64,000 nt of DNA from Candidatus Nitrospira nitrosa. Lineage in GTDB: Bacteria > Nitrospirota > Nitrospiria > Nitrospirales > Nitrospiraceae. The stretch is from assembly GCF_001458735.1 (NCBI RefSeq), contig NZ_CZQA01000008.1, forward strand, positions 620,001-684,000, given 5' to 3'. The notes beneath the pieces were generated by a model, which saw only the letters and a list, made by a program, of their open reading frames with translations, searched no databases and was not told the origin of the DNA. Positions 24,218 to 58,924 of the stretch are shown piece after piece; position 1 is the first letter of the stretch; every line of letters starts with the position of its first letter. A program made the translations under genes and the position numbers.

Positions 24218-25615
24218 ATGTTCAGGCCCATTCCAGAAGCCACGCTCTTCCGACGGATCCCCTATCGGTTGATCGTGTCCGTGCTCCTACTCCTCGCCTT
24301 GGTCGTATCCGTCATGTTGCTCGTCAGCCTCGAACGAGAAAAACTCTTGCTTCGAGGATTTACCGAGGGGTCGAAGGCTCCGACAGAACTCTTCCAGGCC
24401 CTCTGGCAATCGCGCAACGATCTGATCGTCGAGACTCTTCTCGGCTTCCTCGTCAGTGCGATCGGGATCGCGGCGGCCATGACGTTTTTTCACTATGACG
24501 CCACGAGAAGGACCCTGGAAGAAGTCAAGGAACTCGCGCGGAACATTCTCCAGGGCATCCCCACGGGTGTGCTCACGGTTAATCAGGAAGGACTCGTCAG
24601 CGCGATGAATCCGGCGGCTGAGATGGTATTGAATCGCGTCTCACCGAGCTTGCTGGGGAACAGCTATGACGCGATATTCCTCGAAGCAGATCCGATCCGA
24701 CAGGCTCTCGACGAGGCGTTGAGAGCGCACCGACATGTCAGTCAGAAGGACGTCCTCTATGAGCGCAAGGACCTCCCCCCGAAGACCATTCGCGTGAGTA
24801 CAGCGGAACTGACCGGGGACGATAAGAAGGCTGCGGGCGTGATTCTGCAGGTGCAGGACGTCACCGAATGGCTCGGTCTGGAACAGCGAGTCCGGGTCGC
24901 AGAAAAGTTAGCGGCCCTGCATACGCTGTCCGCAGGGATGGCGCATGAGCTGCGCAATCCCTTAAGTGCCATGGATCTGAATTTGCACCTGCTGGAGGAA
25001 GAACTCAAGGAGAAGGGAACGCCAGGACAACAAGGTTGGCAATACCTCCACGTCTTGAATGCGGAATGCCGCCGTCTGTCTGGGATTCTGGACAACTTTA
25101 TGAGGTTCGCGCGCCCAGGCGCGGTAGGCCTGCACGATATCAACGTCCAGGCACTGATCGAACACATCAGGGCCTTGATGCAGTTTGAGGCAGAGGAACG
25201 TCATGTTCTGCTTGACTATACTGTGGGAAAGGATTTGCCGGCAGTGTTGGGGGACGACACCCAGATCAGCCAAGTCTTGGTGAACATCATTGTGAATGCG
25301 TTTCATGCCATGCCGAACGGTGGGCGCTGTCATATCGCAGCGGTGCGCCGGGAGGCGGATGGGAAATCGTGGGTGGAAATTGCGGTGGAAGACAGCGGCG
25401 TCGGGATTCCTCAGAAGGAACTTCCCCGATTATTTGAACCTTTTTACACAACCAAGTCGAGCGGGACGGGGCTCGGTCTTGCCATCGCGTACCGGATTAT
25501 GCAGGATCATGGCGGCACGATTCAGGTATCGAGCGTACCCGGAAGTGGAACGACGGTGGTGACACGATTTCCCCTCGCGAGTGATCACCCGCACCACGTG
25601 GGTGTGGGATCATGA
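24218..25615 (+). CDS. Membrane sensor histidine kinase (NtrB-like)
   Basis: 465 residues. Two membrane helices (about 17-40 and 70-90) bracket a short periplasmic loop. A PAS domain follows (about 105-215, ILQGIPTGVLTVNQEGLVSA). The H-box is LSAGMAHELRNPLSAMDLNL (His about 246), and the ATPase domain has N-box QVLVNIIVNAFHAMPNG, G1 VEDSGVGIP and G2 GTGLGLAIAY. It should autophosphorylate and control the sigma-54 response regulator that overlaps its stop codon (ATGA). The signal is unknown. Confidence 0.93.
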   Translation: MFRPIPEATLFRRIPYRLIVSVLLLLALVVSVMLLVSLEREKLLLRGFTEGSKAPTELFQALWQSRNDLIVETLLGFLVSAIGIAAAMTFFHYDATRRTLEEVKELARNILQGIPTGVLTVNQEGLVSAMNPAAEMVLNRVSPSLLGNSYDAIFLEADPIRQALDEALRAHRHVSQKDVLYERKDLPPKTIRVSTAELTGDDKKAAGVILQVQDVTEWLGLEQRVRVAEKLAALHTLSAGMAHELRNPLSAMDLNLHLLEEELKEKGTPGQQGWQYLHVLNAECRRLSGILDNFMRFARPGAVGLHDINVQALIEHIRALMQFEAEERHVLLDYTVGKDLPAVLGDDTQISQVLVNIIVNAFHAMPNGGRCHIAAVRREADGKSWVEIAVEDSGVGIPQKELPRLFEPFYTTKSSGTGLGLAIAYRIMQDHGGTIQVSSVPGSGTTVVTRFPLASDHPHHVGVGS

Positions 25616-26970
25616 CGCAAGCCGAGCATATTCTCATCGTGGACGATGAGGTGAATATTCGGAGTGCGCTGGTAACGATGTTGGAGAAAAAAGGCTATCA
25701 CGTTGCCGGAAGAGGGACAGGGGAAGAAGCGTTGCAACATCTCGAGGAAGTCCGGGCTGATCTGGTGATCACCGACCTGAGGATGCCCGGGATCGGCGGG
25801 ATAGAATTCCTCCGTCGCGTTAAAGAGCAATGGCCCGACACGGTCGTCGTTATCATGACGGCGTATGGGTCGATCGATACGGCGGTGGAAGCAATGCGGC
25901 TGGGAGCCTATGACTATCTGACCAAACCGGTCGACCGTGAGCGGCTTCCGGTCGTGGTAGCCAAAGCGCTCGAGCACCATGCCCTGGCCTTTGAGAACAA
26001 GCGCCTCCGCGACCGTCTCGACACGCGGTCACGATTCGAGCAGATGAGCGGCGAGAGTGCGGCCATGCAACGAGTCTATAGCCTGGTGGAGATGGTGGCA
26101 GACCGCGATGTGACTGTCCTGCTCACAGGGGAAAGCGGAACCGGCAAGGAACTAGTCGCGCGCGCGATCCACCATAAGAGCCTGAGAGCCGATGGGCCGT
26201 TCATTACCGTCAATTGCGGGGCCTTACCAGAGAATCTTTTCGAGAGCGAATTGTTCGGGTATGAAAAGGGCGCGTTCACCGGCGCCATGGCAACCAAGGT
26301 GGGGCGGTTCGAACTGGCAGACGGCGGCACCCTGCTGCTGGACGAAGTCGGCGAACTCTCCCTCAAGTCGCAAGTTGACTTCCTGCGTGTACTGGAAACG
26401 AAAGAATTCAGGCGCTTGGGGGGAACGAAGTTGATCAGAGTCGATGCGAGGATCATCGCCGCCACGAATCGCAATTTGGCTGAAGCGGTGAAGCAGGGGG
26501 ATTTTCGAGAAGATCTTTATTATCGGCTGAACGTCGTGCCGCTCCATCTTCCGCCGCTCCGTGAACGAGGGGACGACATCCCGCTGCTCGTGACACGGTT
26601 TCTGGTGGAATGTTGCGCGCAACATCAACGAAAACCCAAGGAAGTTTCTCGGGAGGCCATGCGACTACTTCGATTGTATGCTTGGCCCGGCAACATTCGC
26701 CAGCTGAGAAACCTGATGGAGCGATTAGTGGTCACCGTGCCGGATACAACGCTTCACCCAATGCACCTTCCCGAAGAAATCCAGATCAGTAAGGAAGACC
26801 ACCGCACCATGATGGTGACGCTCGGAACACCGATTGAGCAGATCGAGCGAGACGTGATCAGTCGAACCTTGAAGGAAGTCACCAACCATCGGGAACAGGC
26901 CGCAAAGCTGTTAGGGATCAGCTTGAGAACCCTCCAATATAAAATCAAAGAATACGGCATTCGCGACTGA
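25612..26970 (+). CDS. NtrC-family sigma-54-dependent response regulator
   Basis: 452 residues. Receiver domain 1-120 with the acceptor Asp in VITDLRMPG; AAA+ domain about 140-370 with Walker A TGESGTGKELVARAIHHK, the sigma-54 contact loop GYEKGAFTGA, Walker B GGTLLLDEVGELS and the arginine region PLRERGDDIPLL; Fis-like helix-turn-helix at the end (EQAAKLLGISLRTLQYKIKE). All elements needed to activate sigma-54 RNA polymerase are intact. Targets are unknown; the next gene is the first of the long locus from 27300. I found no convincing -24/-12 promoter in the gap. Confidence 0.95.
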   Translation: MTQAEHILIVDDEVNIRSALVTMLEKKGYHVAGRGTGEEALQHLEEVRADLVITDLRMPGIGGIEFLRRVKEQWPDTVVVIMTAYGSIDTAVEAMRLGAYDYLTKPVDRERLPVVVAKALEHHALAFENKRLRDRLDTRSRFEQMSGESAAMQRVYSLVEMVADRDVTVLLTGESGTGKELVARAIHHKSLRADGPFITVNCGALPENLFESELFGYEKGAFTGAMATKVGRFELADGGTLLLDEVGELSLKSQVDFLRVLETKEFRRLGGTKLIRVDARIIAATNRNLAEAVKQGDFREDLYYRLNVVPLHLPPLRERGDDIPLLVTRFLVECCAQHQRKPKEVSREAMRLLRLYAWPGNIRQLRNLMERLVVTVPDTTLHPMHLPEEIQISKEDHRTMMVTLGTPIEQIERDVISRTLKEVTNHREQAAKLLGISLRTLQYKIKEYGIRD

Positions 26971-27942: not shown

Positions 27943-28335
27943 ATGAAAGAGCCGGGAACCATGTCCCAAGTTCGTGAGCAGCAGATCTGGTTGTTGAACG
28001 TGCTCGAGTCTCTGGCGGCGGTGCTTGTTGTAGTCGGAGCTATCGCCTGGGGCTGGTATCGGACTCTCCTGGTTGCCTTCAGCCTAACCGTTTTGCCCTA
28101 TGCCGTGTGGCGCACAATACGAAACCTCGAACAAGAACCCGATCCGTCTCGTCATCCTGAGGAACGACTTGCGAAAGAAGGATCAACCGCGCCAGGGCTG
28201 ATCTCCTGCTGGCCGGTGGATTCAGAAATGAAACACGGTCGTACGAACCGAGTCAATCAACCAATGATCCAAACAGCCACAGCCATGGAACAGAAAGGAA
28301 CGCTACATGAATCCATTGCATGCCGTCACGCGTGA
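27943..28335 (+). CDS. Small two-helix membrane protein
   Basis: 130 residues. Two adjacent hydrophobic segments (about residues 20-55: SLAAVLVVVGAIAWGWY and TLLVAFSLTVLPYAVW) are followed by a polar tail. The last ten codons overlap the start of the next gene (28307), so translation is probably coupled or the tail is not conserved. No family recognised. ATG 27943 has AAGGGA upstream; ATG 27961 is an alternative. It could tether other products of the locus to the membrane (inference). Confidence 0.55.
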   Translation: MKEPGTMSQVREQQIWLLNVLESLAAVLVVVGAIAWGWYRTLLVAFSLTVLPYAVWRTIRNLEQEPDPSRHPEERLAKEGSTAPGLISCWPVDSEMKHGRTNRVNQPMIQTATAMEQKGTLHESIACRHA

Positions 28336-28999
28336 ACGTGTGATCGATGTCGGTCCGGCCGGATTTCATCCTCCCTCGGCGATGGAATTGGGGGTGACCC
28401 ATCCTGACTCCGGGTTCGGGTTGTGCTACGGCCAGCATGCGCCGGCCGATGAGGTCATTGCCGAATCAGCGCGGCAATTATATACGCGAAAGAATCCCAC
28501 GATCTTTCCTGGCCCCTTGTATCTCTGGGCTTGGAATCCCGACTGGATCGCTAAAGGACAGGCCCTGTTGCGGCTCGCCGCCGAAATTCCGAATGTGATG
28601 ATCATTCCGATGCCGGACTATCGGCCGAAGTATCCCAAGATCGATCCGGAGGAAGGGATCAACCCCAATCATCCAAACCTCACGATCTGGCACAACAAGA
28701 TCGAGGTTGCCCTGTTCATCGGCATTCATTGCCACTATGCCAACTTGGCGCTGCGCATGATACGAGCCGGAACGAATTGCCTCACGATCGCTTTTTGCCA
28801 CGACATTCATGAAGACGCGATGCTCAGCCTCCAGGATCTCGATGTGACCTACATGAATCACGTCATCGAGATTTTTCGAGCCGTGCGCAAGGAGCTGGGC
28901 GTCGAAATGCCGCCGGACGGGAAGACCGTACGCTTGACCGGCACGCAGATGCGCGCCAACCACGGGGTGGAGTGCGTGCATCCGTGTCCAGGAGCCTGA
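28307..28999 (+). CDS. PorE/ForE-like protein 1 (CODH beta subunit-family annotation)
   Basis: 230 residues, soluble. Shared with the second copy at 31561 are NPTIFPGP, LWAWN, DYRPKYPKI, NPNHPNLTIW-NKI, G-HCH--N-AL and IR-GT-C-TIA. To my knowledge proteins of this type accompany five-subunit pyruvate or 2-oxoglutarate:ferredoxin oxidoreductases in Nitrospira and Hydrogenobacter as small subunits and are listed in databases as CODH beta subunit-family; this assignment is from memory. A TPP- or ThDP-like role is not implied. The conserved His and Cys (HCH, TNC, FCH) could bind metal. AAAGGA seven bases upstream supports ATG 28307. Confidence 0.7.
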   Translation: MNPLHAVTRERVIDVGPAGFHPPSAMELGVTHPDSGFGLCYGQHAPADEVIAESARQLYTRKNPTIFPGPLYLWAWNPDWIAKGQALLRLAAEIPNVMIIPMPDYRPKYPKIDPEEGINPNHPNLTIWHNKIEVALFIGIHCHYANLALRMIRAGTNCLTIAFCHDIHEDAMLSLQDLDVTYMNHVIEIFRAVRKELGVEMPPDGKTVRLTGTQMRANHGVECVHPCPGA

Positions 29000-29040
29000 G
29001 CGGATTGGGGGAAAGGGGTAGAAAGAAGAGGACTCGAAGG

Positions 29041-29331
29041 ATGTCGGGACCGGAGAGAAACTCACGCGAACCGCGACGCAGGACGGACCCGTTTGGGAGC
29101 GAGGACTGGTTGGCACAGCTCATCCGACTTCAGGACGCGCTGACCCTGTGTCCCACAGACATCACCTCGCGCTGTGAGTTGGCGGCATTGCTCGAAGCAC
29201 TCGGGCAGCCAGAGGAAGCCTTCGTCAATTGGAAAGCAGTTTTGAGCACCGATCCCAACAATCTCACGGCACGAGAGGGAATGGCGCGTTGTCACCGGAA
29301 GGTGGGACGGCCGCTTCAATCCAGCCTGTGA
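29041..29331 (+). CDS. Small TPR-like protein
   Basis: 96 residues from ATG 29041 (GAAGG upstream). The middle reads as about two tetratricopeptide helices pairs: DALTLCPTDITSRCELAALL and EALGQPEEAFVNWKAVLSTD, then PNNLTAREGMARCHRKVG. TPRs mediate protein contacts, so this may be an assembly or adaptor factor for the neighbouring oxidoreductase-like proteins (inference). A longer frame from 28972 overlaps the preceding gene and lacks a ribosome-binding site. Confidence 0.65.
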   Translation: MSGPERNSREPRRRTDPFGSEDWLAQLIRLQDALTLCPTDITSRCELAALLEALGQPEEAFVNWKAVLSTDPNNLTAREGMARCHRKVGRPLQSSL

Positions 29332-29344
29332 GAGGAGCACGGTG

Positions 29345-29554
29345 ATGCCGGCGATCCGGGGCACAGTCGACCGAGTCGATACCAGTACCAGCTGTGTGCA
29401 GGTGAAGGCTCCCCTGTCCGAAAGCACGACGATTCGTGGCCGAGTCTTCGTGACAGCACACATGCGGATCGTCCGAGACATTGAGCGGATCGATCTTTCC
29501 AGTCTCTGTGTGAGGGAATCGGCGGAGATTAGCTACCATCATGGATGCAAGTGA
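29345..29554 (+). CDS. Small hypothetical protein, beta-rich
   Basis: 69 residues. It looks beta-rich at first (AIRGTVDRVDTSTSCVQVKA), as in small barrel or SH3-like folds, followed by a longer VFVTAHMRIVRDIERIDLSS. GTG 29342 and ATG 29345 are adjacent possible starts behind GAGAGGAG. Only 13 bases separate it from the TPR-like gene. Family unknown. Confidence 0.5.
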   Translation: MPAIRGTVDRVDTSTSCVQVKAPLSESTTIRGRVFVTAHMRIVRDIERIDLSSLCVRESAEISYHHGCK

Positions 29555-29690
29555 ATCATAGAAGCGGAGATGATTTCGATTCGATCCGACAGTGCGATCT
29601 GGCTGTTTCAGAGCGCCCCAGGGAAAAGTTCGTGCTCAGCCTTCGTAAGAAGTTGAGACGATCTCCGAATCACAACTGAGGAGGTAGCCC

Positions 29691-29774
29691 ATGGCGACGA
29701 AACGGAAGGCACCGGCGAAAACGTCTATACGAACAACAGCCAGCAAGAAGAAGAGGAAAGGGAAAAAGCAATAG
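29691..29774 (+). CDS. 27-residue Lys/Arg-rich peptide
   Basis: ATG 29691 sits after a strong GAGGAGG. The peptide begins MATKRKAPAKTSIRTTASKK and ends in a Lys/Arg run; 12 of 27 residues are Lys or Arg. It resembles the basic tails of histone-like proteins. The excellent ribosome-binding site and complete frame argue that it is translated. Role unknown; it could bind nucleic acid or acidic partners. Confidence 0.55.
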   Translation: MATKRKAPAKTSIRTTASKKKRKGKKQ

Positions 29775-29798
29775 CCCGTTGAGAGGAGGGGTCTCACG

Positions 29799-30077
29799 AT
29801 GTCAGGACATGCCGATATCGTTCTGGTGCAATATCCACGGGGCGCCACCGCTCTGGTGTGGGTCGATTTAAGCACAGGGCGGGTGATGACCAACCATGCC
29901 GGATTACAGGTCACGTTACGCCGAGGCGTGAAGAACTGGGCTGGCCAGGTTCTCCGTCCGCACGACGGCGCGCTCTTTCTCTCCGCCGTCTACGACCACT
30001 TTTTTCTCAGCGGGTATCCGGTCCACTGGCTTGGCGTTTCTGGGTTGAAGGGAGTGCAGAACACCTATCGTGTATAG
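29799..30077 (+). CDS. Hypothetical protein
   Basis: 92 residues, soluble, apparently beta-rich (IVLVQYPRGATALVWVDLST, GLQVTLRRGVKNWAGQVL). GAGGAGGGG precedes ATG 29799. Its stop at 30075-30077 lies just before the start of the gamma-alpha fusion. I do not recognise a family. By position it belongs to the same transcript as the PorE-like genes. Confidence 0.6.
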   Translation: MSGHADIVLVQYPRGATALVWVDLSTGRVMTNHAGLQVTLRRGVKNWAGQVLRPHDGALFLSAVYDHFFLSGYPVHWLGVSGLKGVQNTYRV

Positions 30078-30078
30078 G

Positions 30079-31521
30079 ATGAACGCGATCGACATGGCTC
30101 CCTTCACCGCATGGCTGCCGGCTCGGCCCGATCAAGAGGTGGATCTCATCGTCAAAATCGTGGGGCCTACCGCCTCGGTGCTTGTGAAAGACTGGGCGGT
30201 CATCGCCCAATTCCTTATTCAGAAAGGTCTCTCGGTTATCCTCCAGAGTAGCCGAGTCGATGATGACCGTAGCCCATTCGCCCTCACGATTCGTTTGGCC
30301 ACAAAACCCTTCTCTTCCATGGGATCCGGGTGCGATGTGCTGGTCGATCTCACTGGGACGGATCCGGAATGGCGACGGAAGGGACTTCAACCGGGCAGTG
30401 TACTGATCTGGGAACCTTCGCCGAATGAGCAGGCGCAGCGCTTCCTCTCTCAAGGGGTGGTGGCCTATCCGATTCCACTTAAGGAGTTGTCCAGCAGGCA
30501 GGGCGAGGGCGTTCACGGAAGGGCTTTTACTGCGTTAGGAGTACTCCTCCATCTGCTCGGCGTATCGGAAACCACGCTCTGTCGGTGGGCACCTTCTCTT
30601 TCTGCCCCCCGATCGTTTACTGCCGGGCATGACTATGCGCGGCAGTTTGTCGAGAAACGCGATGTCTATGCCCTTCCATCTCGCTCGGTCGCTCCACAGC
30701 GTGGCATGCTGCTCAGTGCGGAGAAGGCGATCTTGTTGGGGTTCGCAGAGAACGCTTGCGAAAATCGAAACGCTTGTGCGACTGAACTGATGACCACCCC
30801 TTGGCAGTGGGTCGCCCACCATCTCGACCGTGCCCAATCGATCGTATCGGTACTGAAAAGCGAGTGGTATCCGGGTGTGCAGACCTATCGAGCGCCAAAC
30901 GGAAAGGTCATGGTCCTTTCCCGAGCGGACGCTTCTGCTATCGGCTCCTGCCTCAATGGCCTCAAGGCATCTCACATCTTCGTCGCCGCAGATATCGCGG
31001 ATGCGCTGAGGCTGACAATGCTGGGACAGGATCTCATTCGTACCGGCGCCAGCGACGGAGTGGGGATCCTCGTGGAAGACACCATCGTCCTTCAGCAGCA
31101 GACGGTGGAGATTCGCTCTTTGGTCGAGATGATTCGTCGTCGACGTCTCGACGACAGCTGTGCACCTGACGAAAGCCTCGCACTCTGCGAGCAAGATGGA
31201 GACGGCAACGCCGAGGTGGGGTACATCGCCTGGGGTGCGGCGCAGGGCGTGGTGCGGGATGCGGTGAGACTCTGCCGAAGTGTTGGTCTGCGAGTGGCTG
31301 GATTCTATCCCAAACTGATCAGACCGTTTCAGCACCAGGCCATGGAGGCCTTCGCGAGAACCGTCGATCGGGTCGTCCTCGTCGAGTCTGATACGGCTCA
31401 GGGTTATTGGAATGAACTGCACGCAGGCTTCTCGTTCGAGCATTCGCTGCTCACGCCGCCAGCGGGCCAATCACTCACACCGATGGATATTTTTCTCAGA
31501 GAAGGGTTGGGAACCGAGTGA
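30079..31521 (+). CDS. Gamma-alpha fused, degenerate 2-oxoacid oxidoreductase protein
   Basis: 480 residues. Residues about 18-165 resemble the gamma domain of 2-oxoacid:acceptor oxidoreductases (VDLIVKIVG... then VLVDLTGTDPEWRRKGLQPG, VVAYPIPLKEL). About 210-250 is a poor version of the alpha-subunit domain I (LLSAEKAILLGFAENACEN, with TTPWQWV where TPS motifs are expected). Residues about 376-470 match alpha domain II well (VGYIAWGAAQGVVRDAVRL, VAGFYPKLIRPF, RVVLVESD). No beta (TPP-binding) subunit is encoded nearby, and the key alpha motifs are degraded, so classical oxidoreductase activity is doubtful. It may be a scaffold or have a new activity. Start ATG 30079 is uncertain; GTG 30070 overlaps the previous gene. 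Confidence 0.65.
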   Translation: MNAIDMAPFTAWLPARPDQEVDLIVKIVGPTASVLVKDWAVIAQFLIQKGLSVILQSSRVDDDRSPFALTIRLATKPFSSMGSGCDVLVDLTGTDPEWRRKGLQPGSVLIWEPSPNEQAQRFLSQGVVAYPIPLKELSSRQGEGVHGRAFTALGVLLHLLGVSETTLCRWAPSLSAPRSFTAGHDYARQFVEKRDVYALPSRSVAPQRGMLLSAEKAILLGFAENACENRNACATELMTTPWQWVAHHLDRAQSIVSVLKSEWYPGVQTYRAPNGKVMVLSRADASAIGSCLNGLKASHIFVAADIADALRLTMLGQDLIRTGASDGVGILVEDTIVLQQQTVEIRSLVEMIRRRRLDDSCAPDESLALCEQDGDGNAEVGYIAWGAAQGVVRDAVRLCRSVGLRVAGFYPKLIRPFQHQAMEAFARTVDRVVLVESDTAQGYWNELHAGFSFEHSLLTPPAGQSLTPMDIFLREGLGTE

Positions 31522-31560
31522 CATCATACTGCATTCACATCGTAGAAAGGAGTCGCCAGA

Positions 31561-32139
31561 ATGAAACCGTATGAAATGACATTGGGGCCGGAAGGATATC
31601 TCCCGCCATCCGTCTCGGAACGAGGTGTCGTAGGCCCCTCGAAGGACGAGGGGCTTGTGATGGGGAAACGGGTCCCTGAACAACAGGCCATCGATGAAGC
31701 GGCGCGTCGGCTCTTTCAAGCCAGGAATCCCACGATCTTTCCAGGACCGTTGGTGCTTTGGGCCTGGAACCAGCGGGCCATCCGCGAGTCCGAGGTGGTA
31801 CGGGCGTTGGCCGAAGCGGTTCCGGCCAAGCTCATCCCGATGGCGGATTACCGACCGAAATATCCGAAGATCGTTGCCGAAAAGGAGATCAATCCGAACC
31901 ACCCCAATCTGACGATTTGGAAAAATAAGATTGATGTCTGTCTCTTCGTCGGTGTCCACTGCCATCAATCCAATATCGCGCTCAAGATCATTCGTGGAGG
32001 CACGGATTGTTTCACAATTGCGCTGTGTACCTTCAGTGGAGACGATGAAGCCCACATCACGATCAGAGATTTGACCGCCGACACGATTCAGCGCATCGTC
32101 GATTCCGTGTACCGGCAGAAGCGACAGCGGCCTTCCTAG
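31561..32139 (+). CDS. PorE/ForE-like protein 2
   Basis: 192 residues, a close paralogue of the product at 28307; they agree at most positions through the core (AARxLFxxRNPTIFPGP, MADYRPKYPKI, EINPNHPNLTIW, KIIRGGTDCFTIALC). It lacks the C-terminal 30-40 residues of copy 1. The HCH-QSN segment and the two Cys (TDC, ALC) are kept. GAAAGGAG precedes ATG 31561. Two such genes flanking a gamma-alpha fusion suggest distinct subunits of one complex (inference). Confidence 0.7.
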   Translation: MKPYEMTLGPEGYLPPSVSERGVVGPSKDEGLVMGKRVPEQQAIDEAARRLFQARNPTIFPGPLVLWAWNQRAIRESEVVRALAEAVPAKLIPMADYRPKYPKIVAEKEINPNHPNLTIWKNKIDVCLFVGVHCHQSNIALKIIRGGTDCFTIALCTFSGDDEAHITIRDLTADTIQRIVDSVYRQKRQRPS

Positions 32140-32188
32140 ATACCGAGGGCGCTCGATAGTCTCAACACTCATGACGCGAGGTCTTGCG

Positions 32189-33121
32189 ATGCGATACGTT
32201 GTACTTCTGGGGCTGATCGGGGTGACGACCGCAATGGGCTCCTCCGCCTGGCCTTATACTGAAGCAATCGTCACGGATGGTGGGCAAGTGAGTGGGACCG
32301 TCCGGCTCGAGGGCCACGTTCCAAAACCGAAAGGGTATAACCTCACGACCCTGCCGGATCCGTTCTACTGCGGTCGCATTTCCGATGGGCAAGGCTGGCG
32401 CATCTTGCAGCCGTTCAATGTGGGGCCGGCCGGTGCATTCCGAGAGGTCGTCGTCTATCTTGAAGGGGTTGAGAAAGGTAAACCGTTTCACGAGGCGGGC
32501 ACTCCTCAAATCGAGGCGAAGGATTGTCTGTTCCTCCCATTCACGACGGTAGTGCGAGACGACCAATCGGTGACGGTCGTCAACATGGATCCCGTCATGC
32601 ACGATATTCAGGCCTATGAAACGTCGCACCTGGGCGCACGGGTGTTATTCAACGTGCCGCTCCCGATGAATCCGCAGCACCCCCGCAACTTTAAGGACCA
32701 TAGCGAGGCGGCGCTGTACCACAAACATATGGCCGGTGCGCCGACGAAGCAATTGGTCAACCTCAGTAAAGGGCGTCGGATCTTCGTCATGCAGTGCGGG
32801 TTTCATGCCTACATGGAGAGTTGGGGGGTGGCCGTCACGAATCCCTACTTTGCGAAGACGGACGAACAGGGGCGGTTCATGATTACGGATGTCCCGCCTG
32901 GGGCGTATAAATTAGTCGTCTGGCATCCTTACATTCGGACGGTACATGAGCAGACCGTCACCATCACCCCGAACGGAAGCGTGGAAACAACCATCGTGGT
33001 GCAAGCACCGACGGGGAGGCTGTATGCCAACGAGGTATTGGATCATGACTATGTCCGGTACAGCGTGACGGCGGAGCAGAAAAATGAGATCGAGCCGATG
33101 ATTCATAAACAGGAGCACTAA
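32189..33121 (+). CDS. Exported cupredoxin-like / carboxypeptidase-regulatory-like protein
   Basis: 310 residues with a signal peptide (MRYVVLLGLIGVTTAMGSSA). After a beta region the protein has VVNMDPVMHDIQAYE and MQCGFHAYMESWGVAVTNPY, a layout resembling cupredoxin or methylamine-utilisation-type proteins where His and Cys bind type 1 copper. A CarboxypepD_reg/transthyretin-like strand set closes it (GRFMITDVPPGAYKLVVWHP). Copper binding would need His, Cys and a second His/Met, which are present (MHD, QCGFH). It may be a periplasmic electron carrier linked to the locus (inference). Start 32189 is chosen for GCGAGGT seven bases upstream and the signal peptide. Confidence 0.75.
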   Translation: MRYVVLLGLIGVTTAMGSSAWPYTEAIVTDGGQVSGTVRLEGHVPKPKGYNLTTLPDPFYCGRISDGQGWRILQPFNVGPAGAFREVVVYLEGVEKGKPFHEAGTPQIEAKDCLFLPFTTVVRDDQSVTVVNMDPVMHDIQAYETSHLGARVLFNVPLPMNPQHPRNFKDHSEAALYHKHMAGAPTKQLVNLSKGRRIFVMQCGFHAYMESWGVAVTNPYFAKTDEQGRFMITDVPPGAYKLVVWHPYIRTVHEQTVTITPNGSVETTIVVQAPTGRLYANEVLDHDYVRYSVTAEQKNEIEPMIHKQEH

Positions 33122-33472: not shown

Positions 33473-35500
33473 ATGTTGAATCTGTTATGGATTCTTCTCG
33501 GCGGGTATGGGGCCGGGATACTACTTCCCATCTGCCTGCGGGAACGGCCAGAGTCTCAACGTCTCGCGACCAGTGTCGCCGCCATCGTAGCCACCAGTGC
33601 TGGTATCGTTTTGGGGCTCCTTGGCCTCATGTCTTCGGAACCCGTCATAGCCTCTTTCTCCTCCACCATCCCTCTGCTCACCGTAGCCATTCGACTCGAC
33701 CCACTCTCTGCATTCTTCGTCTTGACGATCTCCCTGGTCGGTTTCGCCACGTCGATCTATGCCATCGGATATCTTCGGCATTTAGAGCGGTTTGCATCGA
33801 CTTCCACGCTCGGAGCGCTCTTTAACGCCTATCTCCTCTGTATGACGTTCGTCGTCCTGGCGGACAACGGATTCTTCTTTTTGCTCATCTGGGAACTGAT
33901 GTCGCTGTTGTCCTATTTTCTCGTGGTCACTGAGCACGAGAAGGCGGAGGTGCGGTACGCGGGATTGTTCTATGTGATCATGACGCATATCGGAACTGCG
34001 TTCATTGTCGTAGCGTTCCTGATCTTCTATCAGAGTGCCGGATCATTCTCCTTTGAAGCCTTCCGGCATCCGGAGCGCCCTTTACCCGAAGGTATGCGAA
34101 CGCTCGTGTTTCTCTTGATGTTGATCGGGTTCGGCACAAAGGCCGGCATCGTGCCGCTCCATGTGTGGTTGCCCTATGCGCATCCGGTGGCACCGTCTCA
34201 TGTCTCAGCCGTGATGTCCGGTGTCATGATTAAGACCGCGATCTATGGTCTGATCCGAGTGTATTTTGATTTCTTCGGTGGGCAGTTCCCGTGGTGGTGG
34301 GGGTTTGTTGTCCTGTTCCTCGGGGCGACATCTGCGTTACTCGGCGTGATGTACGCGTTGATGGAACATGACCTCAAGAGGCTCCTCGCATTTCATAGTG
34401 TGGAAAACATCGGCATCATCCTGTTGGGTATCGGAGCCGGTATGATCTTTCAGTCCTACGGATTGAAAGCACTGGCCGCTCTTGGAGTCCTGGCAGGGCT
34501 CTACCATACGATTAATCACGCCCTGTTCAAGGCCTTACTGTTCTTAGGAGCCGGCTCACTGCTCTATGCCACCCATACGCGCAATATGGAAGAGTACGGC
34601 GGATTACTTCGGCGTATGCCTTGGACAGGTGGCTTCTTCTTGATCGGGGCTGTATCGATCTCGGCTCTGCCTCCAACAAATGGGTTCGTGAGCGAATGGC
34701 TGGTATTCCAAAGTCTCTTTCTGAGCTTTCAAATTCCGACGGTGTTTCTCAAGCTGATGCTGCCGATTGCGGCAACGATCTTGGCCCTCACCGGCGTCCT
34801 GGCCCTGGCCTGCTTTGCAAAGGCGTTCGGCATTGCGTTTCTTGCACAGCCACGAAGTACGCACGCCCGTCATGCTGAGGAAGTTCCAATTCCGATGCGC
34901 ATTGGGATGGGTATCCTGGCCACCCTTTGCGTAGCGTTGGGCATTGCCCCGATGGTGGTGGTGCCGCTGTTGGATCGCGTTGTCGCCCCTCTGACAGGGA
35001 TATCGATCACAAGCAAGGTCTTGGCGATCGATGGATGGGCGCTGGCCCCGGTGAATGTCGAATTCTCAAGCCTGTCCACGCCGGTACTTGCGTTGATGCT
35101 TATCGTGCTGGCGATGTTGGGGTTAGGACTCGCCGTCGCACTCGGAGGTCGTCTGCAAAAACGGCATTCTAAGACGTGGGGCTGTGGGATTAACCTTACA
35201 CCTCGGATGGAATATACCGCGACCGGTTTCGTCCAGCCGATCAAACGAGTATTCAGTACGATCTATCAGCCGACGGTGAAACTCGAAACGGAGTTTCTTG
35301 CCGAGTCACGATACTTCGCCAAACGGCGACACTTTGAATTCCACATTGAACCGATCTTCGAGAAATATCTTTACGAACCCTTAGTGGCATTCTTTGCGAC
35401 GCTGGCCGACCGCCTGAAAGTCATCCAGGCAGGCGGTCTCCATCTCTACCTGACCTATATATTCGTGACCTTGATCGCCTTGCTGTTGCTCGCGGTGTAG
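33473..35500 (+). CDS. hyfB: HyfB-like membrane subunit (NuoL/antiporter-type)
   Basis: 675 residues, about 16 membrane helices. The Proton_antipo_M core has WELMSLLSYFLVVTEHEKAE, FGTKAGIVPLHVWLPYAHPV and the Lys/Glu/His chain needed for ion movement (TLxx-HDLKRLLAFHSVENIGI). A C-terminal extension (about 600-675) with amphipathic RYFAKRRHFEFHIEPIFEKY and a last helix is typical of HyfB/HycC. Three bases separate it from hyfC. It would be an ion-translocating module in the complex. The start at 33473 is supported only by context. Confidence 0.9.
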   Translation: MLNLLWILLGGYGAGILLPICLRERPESQRLATSVAAIVATSAGIVLGLLGLMSSEPVIASFSSTIPLLTVAIRLDPLSAFFVLTISLVGFATSIYAIGYLRHLERFASTSTLGALFNAYLLCMTFVVLADNGFFFLLIWELMSLLSYFLVVTEHEKAEVRYAGLFYVIMTHIGTAFIVVAFLIFYQSAGSFSFEAFRHPERPLPEGMRTLVFLLMLIGFGTKAGIVPLHVWLPYAHPVAPSHVSAVMSGVMIKTAIYGLIRVYFDFFGGQFPWWWGFVVLFLGATSALLGVMYALMEHDLKRLLAFHSVENIGIILLGIGAGMIFQSYGLKALAALGVLAGLYHTINHALFKALLFLGAGSLLYATHTRNMEEYGGLLRRMPWTGGFFLIGAVSISALPPTNGFVSEWLVFQSLFLSFQIPTVFLKLMLPIAATILALTGVLALACFAKAFGIAFLAQPRSTHARHAEEVPIPMRIGMGILATLCVALGIAPMVVVPLLDRVVAPLTGISITSKVLAIDGWALAPVNVEFSSLSTPVLALMLIVLAMLGLGLAVALGGRLQKRHSKTWGCGINLTPRMEYTATGFVQPIKRVFSTIYQPTVKLETEFLAESRYFAKRRHFEFHIEPIFEKYLYEPLVAFFATLADRLKVIQAGGLHLYLTYIFVTLIALLLLAV

Positions 35501-35503
35501 CCG

Positions 35504-36454
35504 ATGCTTCAATTGATCATCCTCCTCGTGGCTCAAACAACAGTCTTATTGGCCATCTCCCCGTTTCTCGTGGGGCTCATTCGGAAGGTCAAAGCACGAT
35601 TGCAATTGCGGCGGGGCGCCAGCCTCTTCCAGCCGTACGCCGATTTGGCGAAGCTCTTCCACAAGCAGCCGGTGATCTCGACCACCACCTCATGGATCTT
35701 CACGGCGACGCCGTATATCGTATTTGCCTCAATTTTGACTGCGGGTCTGCTGGTCCCGACGTTCACCTCGCAGACGCCCATGAATTTTGCGGGAAATATC
35801 ATTGCGCTGGTGTATCTCCTGGCGGTGGGCACGTTTTTCTTGATTCTCGCGGGACTCGATGCTGGGTCGGCCTTTGGCGGGATGGGAAGCAGCCGGGAAG
35901 CGATCGTGGCATCGCTGACCGAGCCGGCTATGATGCTCGCGATCTTTGCCATTGCTCTGACGAATGGGTCCACAAATGTGAGCACCATCGTCCATAAAAC
36001 CGCGCTGTTGGAAGGTATCGTCACGGACCCGTCACCGCATCTCATGGCGTTGGCCGCCCTCTTCATCGTGGCACTCGCCGAGACAGGACGGGTGCCGGTC
36101 GACAATCCTGCGACACACCTGGAACTCACCATGATTCATGAAGCAATGCTCCTTGAATACTCAGGGCGCTATCTCGCCTTACTCGAATGGGCAGCCGGGC
36201 TGAAACTGGCAGTGTTCCTCTCTTTGATCGCCAACGTCTTCGCGCCATGGGGCATCGCGACGACCGTCACCCCCGCCGCGATGGGAATCGGGCTCCTGGT
36301 GTACGTGGTGAAAACCGCGGCACTTGCGGTGGTCATCGGAGTCATCGAATGCATGTTCTCCAAATTGCGGTTATTTCGGGTGACGGATCTGCTGGGCGTG
36401 GCGTTCATCCTCGCGCTGCTCGGGTTGCTGTTCTTCTATATTCTTCGGAGCTGA
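35504..36454 (+). CDS. hyfC: HyfC-like subunit (NuoH type)
   Basis: 316 residues, about eight helices. NuoH-family hallmarks: LIRKVKARLQLRRGASLFQP, YADLAKLFHKQPV, AETGRVPVDNPATHLELTMI and EAMLLEYSGRYLALLEWAA. In complex I and Hyf this subunit joins the membrane arm to the redox arm and forms the quinone-chamber region. The conserved Glu/Asp loop is intact, so coupling may be functional. It lies between hyfB and hyfE with spacing under 6 bases. Confidence 0.93.
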   Translation: MLQLIILLVAQTTVLLAISPFLVGLIRKVKARLQLRRGASLFQPYADLAKLFHKQPVISTTTSWIFTATPYIVFASILTAGLLVPTFTSQTPMNFAGNIIALVYLLAVGTFFLILAGLDAGSAFGGMGSSREAIVASLTEPAMMLAIFAIALTNGSTNVSTIVHKTALLEGIVTDPSPHLMALAALFIVALAETGRVPVDNPATHLELTMIHEAMLLEYSGRYLALLEWAAGLKLAVFLSLIANVFAPWGIATTVTPAAMGIGLLVYVVKTAALAVVIGVIECMFSKLRLFRVTDLLGVAFILALLGLLFFYILRS

Positions 36455-36458
36455 ACGG

Positions 36459-37124
36459 ATGCAGGGGCTTTCGTCTATTGGATTACAACTGGTCGACCTA
36501 TGCTCGGCCTTGCTCTTGCTGACCTGTTTCGCGATTGTGGCGCAACGGCGGCTCTCGGCCTGTGTCGACCTGTTCGCCCTGCAGTCGGCCTTTCTCGTCG
36601 TCACCGCAGCGCTGGTCGCCTATCTGACGGGAAACCAACACATCTACATTGCGGCGGGACTGACCGGCATCATTAAAGTGATCGTCATTCCTCGAGTCCT
36701 CAAGAAAGTCATTGATCGCCTCAACGTCAAACGGGAACTGGTGATGCACGTGAACGTGCCGACCGGTCTATTGATTTGCGGTGGACTGGTCATGTTGGCA
36801 TTTTTCATCGCGCAGCCGATCATTCCGCTGGGATCACTCCTCACGCGAGATTCTTTAGCCATCGCCCTCGCGATCGTACTCATCGGATTGTTTACGATGA
36901 TCGCGAGACAAAAGGCGGTCTCCCAACTGATCGGCTTCCTCGTCCTGGAAAACGGGCTGTTTTTGGGTGCCACCGCCGCCACCCATGGCATGCCGTTGGT
37001 CGTCGAATTGGGCGTGTTCTTTGATGTGCTCATTGCGACATTGATCGCGGGAATCTATACGAATCGCTTACAAGATGCATTCGACAGTGTGGATACGGAC
37101 CGACTCACCGTCCTGAAAGAATAG
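36459..37124 (+). CDS. hyfE: HyfE-like subunit (NuoK type)
   Basis: 221 residues, about seven helices. HyfE/NuoK features are AFLVVTAALVAYLTGNQHIY, KVIVIPRVLKKVIDRLNVK and KAVSQLIGFLVLENGLFLGA, with the conserved membrane Glu (LENG). It extends the ion path. A 16-base gap separates it from the next gene. Confidence 0.9.
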   Translation: MQGLSSIGLQLVDLCSALLLLTCFAIVAQRRLSACVDLFALQSAFLVVTAALVAYLTGNQHIYIAAGLTGIIKVIVIPRVLKKVIDRLNVKRELVMHVNVPTGLLICGGLVMLAFFIAQPIIPLGSLLTRDSLAIALAIVLIGLFTMIARQKAVSQLIGFLVLENGLFLGATAATHGMPLVVELGVFFDVLIATLIAGIYTNRLQDAFDSVDTDRLTVLKE

Positions 37125-37139
37125 ACGAGGCTTTCCTTG

Positions 37140-38675
37140 ATGATCGCAGTCATGGTCTTGTTGATCGCTCCGCTTTTCGCGGGAGGACTAAGCCTGGTCG
37201 TCCACCGCTCTACATGGCTTCATGGGATCAATCTCGCAAGTATGGGTGCGCTCGTCACGGCAGAAGTGGTGATCACCCAAACCGTGCTGAGGAACGGTCC
37301 CGTGACGGCATTGGGCCAGTTGGTCTATCTCGACGCATTGTCGACCTTCATTCTATTCATTATTGGAGTGGTCGGACTGGCCTGTTCGTTCTATATGCGT
37401 TCGTACATGGACGAACAAGTCGTGCGGGGCGTGATCGCGCCCGGACGTCTCAACCTGTTCTTTTTTCTCTTCCATATGTTTCTCCTTGCCATGGTGGTTG
37501 CGACCATTGCGAACAGCGTCGGGGTCCAGTGGGTGGCCATCGAGGCGACGACGCTCGCGACCACCTTTCTGATTGCGTTTTGGAGGCGACGAGAGTCGCT
37601 GGAAGCCGGATGGAAATACCTCATTTTATGTTCGGTCGGCATTTCGCTCGCCTTGTTCGGCGTCGTGCTGTTGTATTACTCATCACTCCATGTGCTGAGC
37701 GATGCGAGTCAAGGGTTGAACGTGACGGAGCTACTTCCTGTGGCTGATCGGCTCAATCCCCAGGTGCTCAAGTTGGCCTTCATCTTCATCCTGGTTGGGT
37801 ATGGCACCAAGGTGGGACTCGTCCCGATGCATAGTTGGCTGCCGGATGCCTACACAGAGGCCCCGGCGCCGGTCGTCGCCATGCTCGCCGGTGTTCTCGA
37901 AGTGGTTGCAGCCTATGCCATCCTACGGGTAAGAGTCATCGTTGACCACGCCGTTCCGTTTGCCTTTGCTGGTGGACTGTTGGCATTGCTTGGCTTTGCT
38001 TCATTTGTGACGGCGGCGTTCTTCATCCTCATCCAGCACAACTATAAGCGGCTGTTTGCCTATTCCAGCATCGAGCATATGGGTATTGCCATGATTGGGT
38101 TTGGGGTCGGAGGTGCGCTGGGAACCTTCGGAGGTCTGTTTCATCTCTTGAATCACGCCTTGGCGAAATCGATGGCTTTTTTTGCTGCGGGTAACATTCA
38201 CCGTCGCTTTCACACCGTGGAAATCGCCGAGGTACAAGGGTTGGCCATGGCGCAACCTTGGACGGCCATGGCACTGATGATATCGGGATTGGCCTTATCG
38301 GCGCTTCCACCGTTTGCGGCATTTGGCAGCGAAGTCCAGATTCTCACGGCTTTGGCTTCGCAGGGGGTTCCGGGAACGGAGTTTGCCGGCACCGAGGGCA
38401 TGGTAACGGTGACCTTATCGGATCAATTCGTTCGGATCGCACTCGCTTCAGTCTTTCTGGTCTCCGCGGTTCTTTCGTTCGGCGGACTACTGTATCGCAT
38501 CACCGGAATGGTGTGGGGGACACCGCCTGAGGGAATTGTCCGGGGAGAAATCTGGACACTCGGCCATCTACCGATCATTCTGCTTACCGGAGCGCTTATT
38601 GGATTCAGCGTGTTTCTGCCCCAGCCCATACAACAACTCTTGGAACAAGCGACCAGAATTCTGGTGGTTCAATAG
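37140..38675 (+). CDS. hyfF: HyfF-like membrane subunit (NuoN/M type)
   Basis: 511 residues, about 14 helices, antiporter-like. VGYGTKVGLVPMHSWLPDAY, TEAPAPVVAMLAGVLEVV, IQHNYKRLFAYSSIEHMGIA and the Lys of the discontinuous helix are present, as in proton-pumping NuoM/N homologues. ATG 37140 is chosen over TTG 37137 as the standard start. Together with HyfB it gives two antiporter modules. Followed by the catalytic-arm subunit hyfG after 12 bases. Confidence 0.9.
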   Translation: MIAVMVLLIAPLFAGGLSLVVHRSTWLHGINLASMGALVTAEVVITQTVLRNGPVTALGQLVYLDALSTFILFIIGVVGLACSFYMRSYMDEQVVRGVIAPGRLNLFFFLFHMFLLAMVVATIANSVGVQWVAIEATTLATTFLIAFWRRRESLEAGWKYLILCSVGISLALFGVVLLYYSSLHVLSDASQGLNVTELLPVADRLNPQVLKLAFIFILVGYGTKVGLVPMHSWLPDAYTEAPAPVVAMLAGVLEVVAAYAILRVRVIVDHAVPFAFAGGLLALLGFASFVTAAFFILIQHNYKRLFAYSSIEHMGIAMIGFGVGGALGTFGGLFHLLNHALAKSMAFFAAGNIHRRFHTVEIAEVQGLAMAQPWTAMALMISGLALSALPPFAAFGSEVQILTALASQGVPGTEFAGTEGMVTVTLSDQFVRIALASVFLVSAVLSFGGLLYRITGMVWGTPPEGIVRGEIWTLGHLPIILLTGALIGFSVFLPQPIQQLLEQATRILVVQ

Positions 38676-38687
38676 GAGAGGTTGAGC

Positions 38688-40280
38688 ATGACCAAGACCG
38701 AGTTCTCTGACGATCTGCTCACAACTGCGTTCCCGAGTATTCTGAAGAATCGCCCGATCTGTGCGCAGTCTTCACATTTCGCGGTCCCCAAGGACCTTGT
38801 GCCGGCGATCACCCACTACATTCATACCCAACCGAGCTTGCGTGGCCGTTTGACGCTCCTATGGGCCTGTGATTATCGCCCCGTTCGTGAGACCTATGGG
38901 CTCTACTACTTGTTCACGCTAGAGCGTTCTCACCACTGGGTGGTATTGTCCACCGAAACGGCAGGCACCGATCGACTGTTTCCGTCTATTACCCCCCATC
39001 TTCATGCCGCGCAGTGGTATGAGCGAGAGATCCGCGACATGTTCGGGTTGATTCCCCAAGGGCACCCTGATCTGCGGCGTCTGGTACGTCATGAACATTG
39101 GCGAAAAGGGACACACCCGCTCAGAAAAGACTTCTCCTGGGACGCCACGCTGGGTCGACAGCAGGGTGAACATCACTTCCGCCATATTGAAGGAGAAGGG
39201 GTATTTGAAGTGCCGGTGGGACCCATCCATGCCGGGATCATTGAGTCGGGACATTTTCGGTTTTCCGTGGCCGGTGAACCGATTATGCAACTCGAGCTAC
39301 GTCATTTTTGGAAACACCGTGGTGTGGAGAAACTTTTTGAGCAACAGCTGCTGATTGATGCGGTGCCGCTGGCGGAACGCGTGTCCGGAGATACGACAGT
39401 CGGGCACGCACTCGCCTATTGCCAGGCCGTAGAAGCACTCCTACACCTTGAAGTACCTCGGCGCGCCAAGTACCTCCGCGCGCTCTTTTTAGAACTCGAA
39501 CGACTGTACAATCATCTCGGCGACATTGGAGCCATGTGCAATGACACAGCCTATGCGCTCGCTCACGCCCATTGTGGCCGTATGAAGGAACAGATTATGC
39601 AGCTCAATGATCGGTTGACAGGGTCTCGGTTCCTTCGAGGCGTCATCCAAGTGGGAGGAGTGACCCGGGACATAGAGAACACCCAACTCGCCAAGATTGT
39701 CGAGGAACTGACCCGAATCCAGTCCGACTTCTCCGAAGTGGGGGCCATCATTTTTGCGAACGCCTCCCTCACCGATCGGTTGGAGACGACAGGGATTCTC
39801 AATGAGCAAACGGCATGGGATCATGCAGTGATCGGCATCGTAGGCCGGGCATCGGGCATGAATTATGATCTCAGGCGTGATCGGCCGTTCGCCGCATATG
39901 ACGAACTACCCGTAAATGTGGCCCTCTATCGCTACGGTGACGCGAGGGCCAGGTTACGCGTTCGCGGCGATGAGATCCATGAATCCATTCGGCTCATTCG
40001 CGAAATGCGCGATAAGATTCCGGACGGTCCGATTGCCGGTCAACCCAGTTCTTCGCCGAATCCCGGCGACTGGACACTGGCAGCGGTTGAAGGGTGGCGC
40101 GGCGAGATTCTGTATATGGTGATGGCAGGGGAAGACGGCCGGATTCATCGGTGCAAGGTCCGCGACCCGTCCTTTGTGAACTGGCCTGCTATTCAATGGG
40201 CGGTACTGGGCAATATTATCCCGGACTTTCCACTCATCAACAAGAGCTTCAACCTCTCATACGCCGGGAATGATCTGTAG
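38688..40280 (+). CDS. hyfG: HyfG-like large subunit lacking NiFe ligands (Ehr type)
   Basis: 530 residues, fusion of a NuoC-like domain (about 1-165, REIRDMFGLIPQGHPDLRRL) and a NuoD/large-subunit domain. In NiFe hydrogenases the first ligand motif is RVCGxC; here it is ERVSGDTTVGHALAYCQAVE. The second motif, DPCxxC near the end, is SFNLSYAGNDL. All four cysteines are therefore missing, which is the hallmark of energy-converting hydrogenase-related (Ehr) complexes. It cannot bind a NiFe site in the usual way; the NuoD-like fold may bind another substrate. AGGAGAGG precedes ATG 38688. Confidence 0.88.
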   Translation: MTKTEFSDDLLTTAFPSILKNRPICAQSSHFAVPKDLVPAITHYIHTQPSLRGRLTLLWACDYRPVRETYGLYYLFTLERSHHWVVLSTETAGTDRLFPSITPHLHAAQWYEREIRDMFGLIPQGHPDLRRLVRHEHWRKGTHPLRKDFSWDATLGRQQGEHHFRHIEGEGVFEVPVGPIHAGIIESGHFRFSVAGEPIMQLELRHFWKHRGVEKLFEQQLLIDAVPLAERVSGDTTVGHALAYCQAVEALLHLEVPRRAKYLRALFLELERLYNHLGDIGAMCNDTAYALAHAHCGRMKEQIMQLNDRLTGSRFLRGVIQVGGVTRDIENTQLAKIVEELTRIQSDFSEVGAIIFANASLTDRLETTGILNEQTAWDHAVIGIVGRASGMNYDLRRDRPFAAYDELPVNVALYRYGDARARLRVRGDEIHESIRLIREMRDKIPDGPIAGQPSSSPNPGDWTLAAVEGWRGEILYMVMAGEDGRIHRCKVRDPSFVNWPAIQWAVLGNIIPDFPLINKSFNLSYAGNDL

Positions 40281-40291
40281 GGAGACCGAAC

Positions 40292-40807
40292 ATGTTCCGT
40301 ATCATCAAAAAGAGTCTGAAGATCGGAGTCGTGACGGGTCGTTATCAAAAAGCTGATAGGGCTGCTGTACCAGTGCCCCCTGAAGCGAAGGACAAGACAA
40401 GACCCTTCAAACGATCCCTCGCGATCCGTGAAGTGGATACCGGATCCTGCAACGCCTGTGAAATGGAAATGAACGCGCTCTTGAACCCCGTGTACGATGC
40501 TGAACGGTTCGGTATTCACATCGCCGCGTCGCCACGTCATGCGGATGCGTTGGTCGTCACGGGACCCGTCACTGTCAACATGGAGCGGGCGTTGAAAGAT
40601 GTGCACAGGCAAACGCCTGATCCGAAGATCGTCATTGCGCTCGGCGACTGTGCAATCAACTGCGGCCTATTCAAAGGCAGCTATGCGGTTACGGGTCCGG
40701 TCGATCGTCATATTCCCGTCGATGTCAGAATTTCTGGTTGCCCGCCGCGTCCAGCAGAAATTCTTGAGGCATTGTCGGAATTGCGAGGAAATGGCCAGAA
40801 GGCGTAG
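40292..40807 (+). CDS. hyfI: HyfI-like small subunit (NuoB type)
   Basis: 171 residues. The N2-type [4Fe-4S] cysteines are conserved: CNACEME (two), GDCAIN-C and GCPPRPAEI. The cluster nearest the active site therefore remains. The N-terminal 45 residues are basic and extended. It follows hyfG by about 11 bases; no HyfH/HyfA-type ferredoxin subunit follows. Electrons would need an outside donor. Confidence 0.92.
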   Translation: MFRIIKKSLKIGVVTGRYQKADRAAVPVPPEAKDKTRPFKRSLAIREVDTGSCNACEMEMNALLNPVYDAERFGIHIAASPRHADALVVTGPVTVNMERALKDVHRQTPDPKIVIALGDCAINCGLFKGSYAVTGPVDRHIPVDVRISGCPPRPAEILEALSELRGNGQKA

Positions 40808-53965: not shown

Positions 53966-54177
53966 CAGGGAACCTCCAATGTGGACGACGTCATAATTCG
54001 CTATGGACCGTACCGGTTAATTCCTTATGAATATGACCAAACACACCCACCGTCTTTTACAAGGTGCGTAGAACCCCTCTCCCGTACCCACAGTGTCCAC
54101 GTCGCGCCGTGCCTCAAGACCGCTTAGTCATCATGATACACACCGCTTGTTCGATGTATTCCCAGCAAGCCTCTGTG

Positions 54178-55395: not shown

Positions 55396-55757
55396 GACAA
55401 AACATCGCACTGGAGTGATCACTCAAGCGACCGCTCACTGCTTTCATTCAACCGTATACCCTTATGAAGTCGGACGGCTCACCTCCAGCCAGCTCACGAC
55501 GCAACACGACCACGGATGGGAGCCCGGTGGTGTCCCATCTAATCTCAAATCCACCACTCACATGATTCGGCTAATGACTATAGCTAAGGATCACGGCCTC
55601 GATGGAATATGAGCGGCTCTGAAGATCACGACATTCACGTTTCATCAAAGTGGCATGCGGGACCAAGCACACGCCCCCACTTCCCCTTCCACACTTCTGA
55701 GTAGTACCCACTCCTGCATAATGCGGTGCCACTCCCATACCACTCCGGCAAGCCTTA
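55396..55757. other. Promoter region of the outer-membrane gene
   Basis: 362 bases without a supported gene. It holds the palindrome at 55413-55424 and should carry the promoter of the barrel gene. The lower-GC composition of the cluster is visible here too. Confidence 0.35.
55413..55424. promoter_or_regulatory. Perfect 12-bp palindrome, candidate operator
   Basis: GAGTGATCACTC is perfectly palindromic and lies 17 bases upstream of the start codon (55395) of the barrel gene, in a position suited to a repressor or to translation-initiation control. No regulator gene adjoins it. Confidence 0.35.
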
Positions 55758-56540: not shown

Positions 56541-56551
56541 GTTGTCTCCTT

Positions 56552-58903: not shown

Positions 58904-58924
58904 GTCAATGGCAAATAGGTTTGC

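Follow-up and report, generated by a model that had tools for sequence, protein, structure and literature searches.

A conserved gamma-alpha oxidoreductase pseudoenzyme, probably derived from an OFOR-Ehr gene set, precedes the Ehr operon in Candidatus Nitrospira nitrosa and its relatives

Introduction

Two described systems come closest to the locus reported here. Five-subunit 2-oxoacid:ferredoxin oxidoreductases (OFORs) of the Por/For type have been described in Nitrospira (PMC8115632, PMC10579370). Ehr is carried by about half of the Nitrospirales genomes (PMC12342949); its function has been described as unknown (PMC12342949, PMC10284858), and complexes of Ehr with formate dehydrogenase (FDH) have been proposed in other organisms (PMC6349859). 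In Candidatus Nitrospira nitrosa, a carbon monoxide dehydrogenase (CODH) has been reported adjacent to hyf genes (Camejo et al. 2017, PMC5596200). Here, we analyze a 64,000-nucleotide stretch of this genome (hereafter, the window; contig NZ_CZQA01000008.1 of assembly GCF_001458735.1, denoted G000:C8:620001-684000, plus strand), in which two small PorE/ForE-type proteins, E1 and E2, flank a fused gamma-alpha protein, GA, and a conserved small protein, X92, upstream of an Ehr operon. The genome (4,422,398 bases, 15 contigs) belongs to a comammox Nitrospira because it holds two ammonia monooxygenase (AMO; PF02461) genes.

On balance, we favor the reading that E1-X92-GA-E2 is a conserved, catalytically dead OFOR descendant that stands before an Ehr operon lacking the NiFe site and has a docking or electron-transfer role. 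Sequence comparison gives good support to the derivation from an OFOR-Ehr gene set and to the loss of OFOR catalysis, but not to the present role, which we infer.

Results

The gamma-alpha protein

The module comprises the following genes, all on the plus strand (window coordinates):

28307-28999, plus: E1, PorE/ForE-type protein of the type with a long C-terminal tail (PF02552, E-value 4.9e-36; placed in the E tree)
28972-29331, plus: small tetratricopeptide repeat (TPR) protein (TPR_17, E-value 4e-7), start uncertain, open reading frame (ORF) overlapping the end of E1
29799-30077, plus: X92, conserved 92-amino acid (aa) protein, the fourth module member (no Pfam family; conserved beside GA)
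30079-31521, plus: GA, gamma domain, degenerate alpha domain I, and alpha domain II; putative pseudoenzyme
31561-32139, plus: E2, PorE/ForE-type protein of the short type (PF02552, E-value 4.8e-39; placed in the E tree)

The initial annotation had described the E1/GA/E2 arrangement correctly but overlooked the TPR and X92 genes between E1 and GA. The likely start of GA is the ATG at 30079, with homologues opening with M-x-AIDMAP; the ORF caller had chosen the GTG at 30070.

GA shares the domain order gamma, alpha I, alpha II and the fold with the gamma-alpha OFORs (TIGR03710), including 6n2n_A, the gamma-alpha chain of the Magnetococcus marinus 2-oxoglutarate:ferredoxin oxidoreductase. A profile of the GA family finds this chain at an E-value of 7e-44, and the AlphaFold2 (AF2) model of GA (predicted local distance difference test score, pLDDT, 80; predicted template modeling score 0.82) superposes on it with a Z-score of 24.4 and a root-mean-square deviation of 3.8 over 411 residues, so that the KorA-type gamma-alpha fold is retained. 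In contrast to the gamma-alpha OFORs, GA has no accompanying beta subunit and lacks the elements associated with thiamine pyrophosphate (TPP) and substrate: in all GA rows of the alignment, the YPITP and GTSGPG motifs, the ED..GAS region, the 33-column DVQR-GPS segment, and the linker leading into domain II are absent or deleted, whereas seven intact relatives keep them. Having lost these elements, GA cannot accommodate TPP and substrate as known enzymes of this kind do. It passes the threshold of PFOR_II, has no match to POR_N, and scores 70.2 bits against TIGR03710, far below the curated cut-off of 482.75.

Three cysteines of GA, C88, C236, and C402, are newly invariant and almost absent from the intact proteins, where the corresponding residues are V, L, or F (C88), the Y of YPITP (C236), and mostly F or L, with a single C (C402). 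A fourth, C230, is inherited. All four are invariant in 19 of the 19 aligned members, and the degenerate domain I is the least conserved region of GA.

Neither a beta subunit nor a ferredoxin is encoded in the locus, and each of the three true OFOR betas of the genome sits with its own alpha. The sole additional candidate for an orphan beta, at C1:1730402, was rejected; it seems to belong to a phosphonopyruvate/sulfopyruvate decarboxylase-type pair, next to which lies a gene resembling aminotransferases. The earlier description of a gamma-alpha fusion with decayed TPP motifs, lacking beta and ferredoxin, is thus borne out, and the standard oxidoreductase that it envisaged as an alternative, completed by a beta and a ferredoxin encoded elsewhere, finds no counterpart: every beta belongs to its own operon, and GA is devoid of the TPP-binding elements.

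Intact OFOR sets before Ehr in related families

In two other families of the class (f5 and f9), intact sets of E, gamma-alpha, beta, and E genes lie directly before the same Ehr operon:

L084:11135-15481 and L085:8166-12406: order E, gamma-alpha, beta, E, HyfBCEF...
L086:6854-10880 and L155:12280-16263: order gamma-alpha, beta, E1, E2, X92-like frame, HyfBCEF...

The gamma-alphas of L084 and L085 pass TIGR03710 (594 and 590 bits, respectively), POR, and POR_N, and the betas of the OFOR-Ehr relatives keep the cysteine motifs typical of a [4Fe-4S] cluster. These complete gamma-alpha proteins were also retrieved by the search with the GA alignment. In the phylogenetic tree, a branch supported at 100/100 separates GA and the OFOR-Ehr gamma-alphas from gamma-alphas encoded in other operons; the GA branches are long and their exact sister is unsure. 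The GA clade itself stands apart from the intact gamma-alpha proteins, again with 100/100 support; the initial annotation had named a clade distinct from PorA as support for its new complex. Because distant genomes of the class hold the intact form at the same place, GA is best explained as a beta-less OFOR pseudoenzyme that originated from an OFOR-Ehr gene set. The layout had been called unlike that of any known OFOR; it is indeed degenerate and beta-less, but it represents a derived OFOR-Ehr set with an intact version in relatives and an additional member, X92.

The Ehr assignment of the operon itself follows from a group 4-like HyfG lacking both NiFe CxxC motifs and a HyfI that keeps four (FeS) cysteines, in the window as well as in the OFOR-Ehr relatives. 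HyfG of this NiFe-less type is present in 107 of the 247 genomes of the class that were surveyed. As in Ehr of other organisms, including the proposed FDH-Ehr (PMC6349859), a NiFe-ligand-less hyfBCEFGI operon adjoins genes of a soluble oxidoreductase; here, however, the partner is an OFOR (intact in f5 and f9, dead in Nitrospirales) rather than formate dehydrogenase. No description of an OFOR-Ehr pairing was found in the literature searched, a corpus with most subscription journals outside its coverage. The intact sets of L084, L085, L086, and L155 possibly represent an undescribed 2-oxoacid-linked energy-converting complex. In one further locus (L153:7196-8657, G300:C16), HyfB is immediately preceded by a pair of housekeeping-type E genes, and no alpha, beta, or gamma was detected in the vicinity.

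Distribution, conservation, and losses of the module

GA was found in 14 of the 396 genomes of the phylum, including that of the window, all from the family of the window. Altogether, about 20 homologues were identified in 18 other genomes, all of a single taxonomic order, with 34-58% identity (identities of GA, E1, and E2 are given relative to the window copies). A scan of genome contigs with the GA alignment yielded 14 loci; a scan of genome contigs with the single GA sequence gave no matches. Related assemblies added further GA loci, including one from a different family of this taxonomic order. The gene order E1, TPR, X92, GA, E2 is found in nearly every sufficiently long GA locus. Genes for a histidine kinase and a sigma-54 regulator stand upstream of it, and in most cases an exported protein and hyfBCEFGI come next downstream; because it recurs across many genomes, this arrangement is far beyond chance. 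In the window, the flanking genes are:

24218-25615, plus: PAS histidine kinase (Pfam), in conserved synteny upstream of the module and Ehr
25612-26970, plus: sigma-54-dependent response regulator (Pfam), in conserved synteny upstream of the module and Ehr
32171-33121, plus: exported protein with a carboxypeptidase-regulatory-like domain (PF13620, E-value 3.3e-8), between E2 and Ehr
33473-40807, plus: Ehr operon hyfB, C, E, F, G, I, complex I/group 4 hydrogenase-like, with no NiFe site

The small TPR protein is found at most GA and Ehr loci, and the exported protein is conserved at its place and retained also by some genomes lacking GA. Scans for sigma-70 and sigma-54 consensus sequences gave matches near or below the chance level.

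X92 is conserved beside GA in all loci examined and has a homologue in the intact f9 loci, between E2 and HyfB. It has no Pfam match, and comparison of its AF2 model (pLDDT 82) with the PDB gave no useful match. X92 is thus retained with GA, and its frame is interrupted by stops in G032 and G220, both of which lack GA (L145:8884-9156 and L147:8970-9235, the two broken copies).

All full-length GA copies have open frames, and the pairwise dN/dS values (GA, 0.17-0.40; E1, 0.07-0.18; E2, 0.03-0.17) indicate that all three proteins are under purifying selection, GA the least. Across the GA loci, E1 copies are 72-87% and E2 copies 80-92% identical to those of the window.

Several observations weigh against a conserved module serving Ehr. 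E1 is missing in G194 and only a fragment of it is present in L070; the module is absent from most Ehr-bearing genomes; and G159 (98% complete) keeps E1-X92-GA-E2 without the Ehr HyfG, so that the module is not Ehr-dependent everywhere. Reductions of the gene set are also on record. In a third family, f6, E1 and E2 bracket just a 160-aa or similar alpha domain II (L093:9838-11642, L094:9944-11909), an independent, further reduction of the same enzyme. In G001, a 115-aa in-frame remnant fuses the very N-terminus of GA with the C-terminal end of E2, and E1 is gone (L015:1312-1659, minus strand; L037:15172-15477); X92, the exported protein, and Ehr remain around this deletion scar. In G264, the gamma-alpha N-terminus runs into the middle of E1 and beta is lost (L154, around 12514-13038, minus strand), through either an independent deletion or an assembly artefact. 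Some of the losses recorded in draft genomes could likewise be assembly artefacts.

Decay thus remains a rival explanation because one genome keeps the module without Ehr and other lineages lost the module by deletion. Under this scenario, OFOR function was lost in an ancestor of Nitrospirales, and the pieces, now of little or no use, have since been disappearing from one lineage after another, as the sporadic presence of GA, the remnants, and the broken X92 frames would suggest. A relic is nevertheless hard to reconcile with the open frames of GA, dN/dS values well below 1, the newly invariant cysteines, and E1 and E2 that remain 72-92% identical across genera, and we consider this explanation unlikely.

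A comammox-specific role of the module was considered and rejected: most of the GA genomes tested give no AMO (PF02461) match, and the AMO-bearing G024 and G032 lack GA. Two genomes each carry two divergent copies of the module (G008, contigs C84 and C61, loci L034 and L035; G253, contigs C16 and C113, loci L092 and L091), which are either real paralogues or signs of mixed bins.

The two E subunits and the published CODH assignment

PF02552, the family matched by E1 and E2, is that of the E subunit in the five-subunit OFOR operons of the same genome. Of the four members encoded in this genome, two OFOR operons contribute one each, the others being E1 and E2. The gene order of these operons is E, alpha, beta, gamma, ferredoxin-like (L009) and gamma, ferredoxin-like, E, alpha, with the beta just upstream (L010), and both agree with published descriptions of five-subunit Por/For from Nitrospira (PMC8115632, PMC10579370). 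The phylogenetic tree of E proteins, in which the housekeeping E rows of other genomes are labelled by similarity and L009 and L010 alone were checked as operons gene by gene, places E1 in a clade with E1 of the intact f9 loci, adjoining the L010-type housekeeping E, and unites E2 of the GA loci with E2 of the intact OFOR-Ehr loci in one clade. Thus, the two proteins, which had been viewed as close PorE/ForE-like paralogues, are of the PorE/ForE type by both their Pfam matches and their grouping with E of Por/For operons and are about 46% identical, but they are not sisters, their nearest housekeeping E types being different. Five residues, H141, C142, H143, C158, and C164, are invariant among 68 E sequences, E1 and E2 included. 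A search for sequence relatives of E1 in the PDB found none.

E1 and E2 share their E families and their invariant residues with the E subunits of the five-subunit Por/For of Nitrospira and Hydrogenobacter thermophilus. The housekeeping operons, however, encode separate alpha, beta, and gamma subunits, a ferredoxin-like protein, and one E, whereas the present locus combines two E with a dead gamma-alpha fusion and encodes neither beta nor ferredoxin; lacking a functional alpha or beta beside them, E1 and E2 are not part of a catalytically complete OFOR. GA genomes carry E1 and E2 in addition to the housekeeping E genes, and four genomes without GA (G024, G001, G113, and G055) have two E genes only.

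These relationships could also be accommodated if the module were an accessory of the housekeeping Por/For, with E1 and E2 exchanging with, or docking, the two five-subunit CO2-fixing oxidoreductases and Ehr being a mere neighbor. The adjacency of E1 and E2 to different housekeeping E lineages and the presence of the module along with two further E genes in the Ehr-less G159 would fit such a role. Its long-standing place before Ehr, already seen in the intact form, and its absence from most Nitrospira, even though Por/For have been described there (PMC10579370), make this explanation improbable.

The E proteins also bear on the published CODH. Although E1 and E2 match PF02552, named for the epsilon subunit of CODH/acetyl-CoA synthase, they group with OFOR E subunits. 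The genome has no match to the prismane/CooS-type catalytic subunit (PF03063); aerobic CoxL-type CODH was not searched for. We rejected a CODH identity for the locus on the grounds that PF02552 members serve OFOR operons and that no CooS/CdhA-type subunit is encoded in the genome. Because E1 and E2 occupy the place reported for CODH and no prismane/CooS-type subunit is present, the statement appears to rest on a Pfam name; very probably, the published CODH next to hyf is E1/E2, named after the Pfam family CO_dh.

Outside the module and the Ehr operon, the window region 52388-63999 resembles a lipid or polyketide cluster. It contains a polyketide-synthase-like ORF (60259-63999) that runs past the window end and is accompanied by genes for an oxidoreductase, a large transporter, and an aminotransferase-like protein; upstream, from 52388 onward, lie genes on the minus strand.

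Discussion

The operon structure suggests that, in the ancestor, an intact OFOR would have oxidized (or formed) a 2-oxoacid, with electrons passing between the FeS cluster of its beta subunit and HyfI, without ferredoxin, given that no ferredoxin gene is present. In the Nitrospirales form, the dead GA core sits between two helpers with intact conserved residues. GA may now hold E1 and E2 in the manner of a scaffold, and the assembly would act as a docking or electron-transfer piece, on the Ehr arm in most genomes. The TPP site may have been replaced by a new one built from the four invariant cysteines of GA, for a metal, an FeS cluster, or a disulfide.

The initial proposal of a repurposed complex thus fares well in one respect, a repurposed assembly without beta being compatible with the purifying selection, the separate GA clade, the new cysteines, and the synteny; a new 2-oxoacid substrate is unlikely. 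It is highly doubtful, too, that GA became a new enzyme acting on a new substrate, with the cysteines as an FeS, Zn, or thiol active site: their invariance and the replacement of the YPITP tyrosine by C236 would fit, but GA evolves fast outside the cysteines, is least conserved in the degenerate domain I, and contains no cofactor motif of a known family that we could find.

The docking or electron-transfer role that we favor can be extended, speculatively and with little confidence in the whole, to a scheme in which the pseudoenzyme with its new cysteine site and two E subunits would form a peripheral arm through which the CO2-fixing Por/For of Nitrospira swap low-potential electrons directly with an ion-translocating Ehr, the ancestral intact OFOR-Ehr having been an undescribed membrane-bound energy-converting oxidoreductase.

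For Ca. N. nitrosa, the reassignment of E1/E2 very probably removes the published suggestion of CO-based life. The Nitrospirales form is unusual in that a large oxidoreductase core is retained as a pseudoenzyme in which new cysteines have become fixed; it occurs in bacteria for which the origin of the electrons used in CO2 fixation is an open question. The intact OFOR set before Ehr in related lineages provides a concrete candidate partner for Ehr and hints at the original role of this complex.

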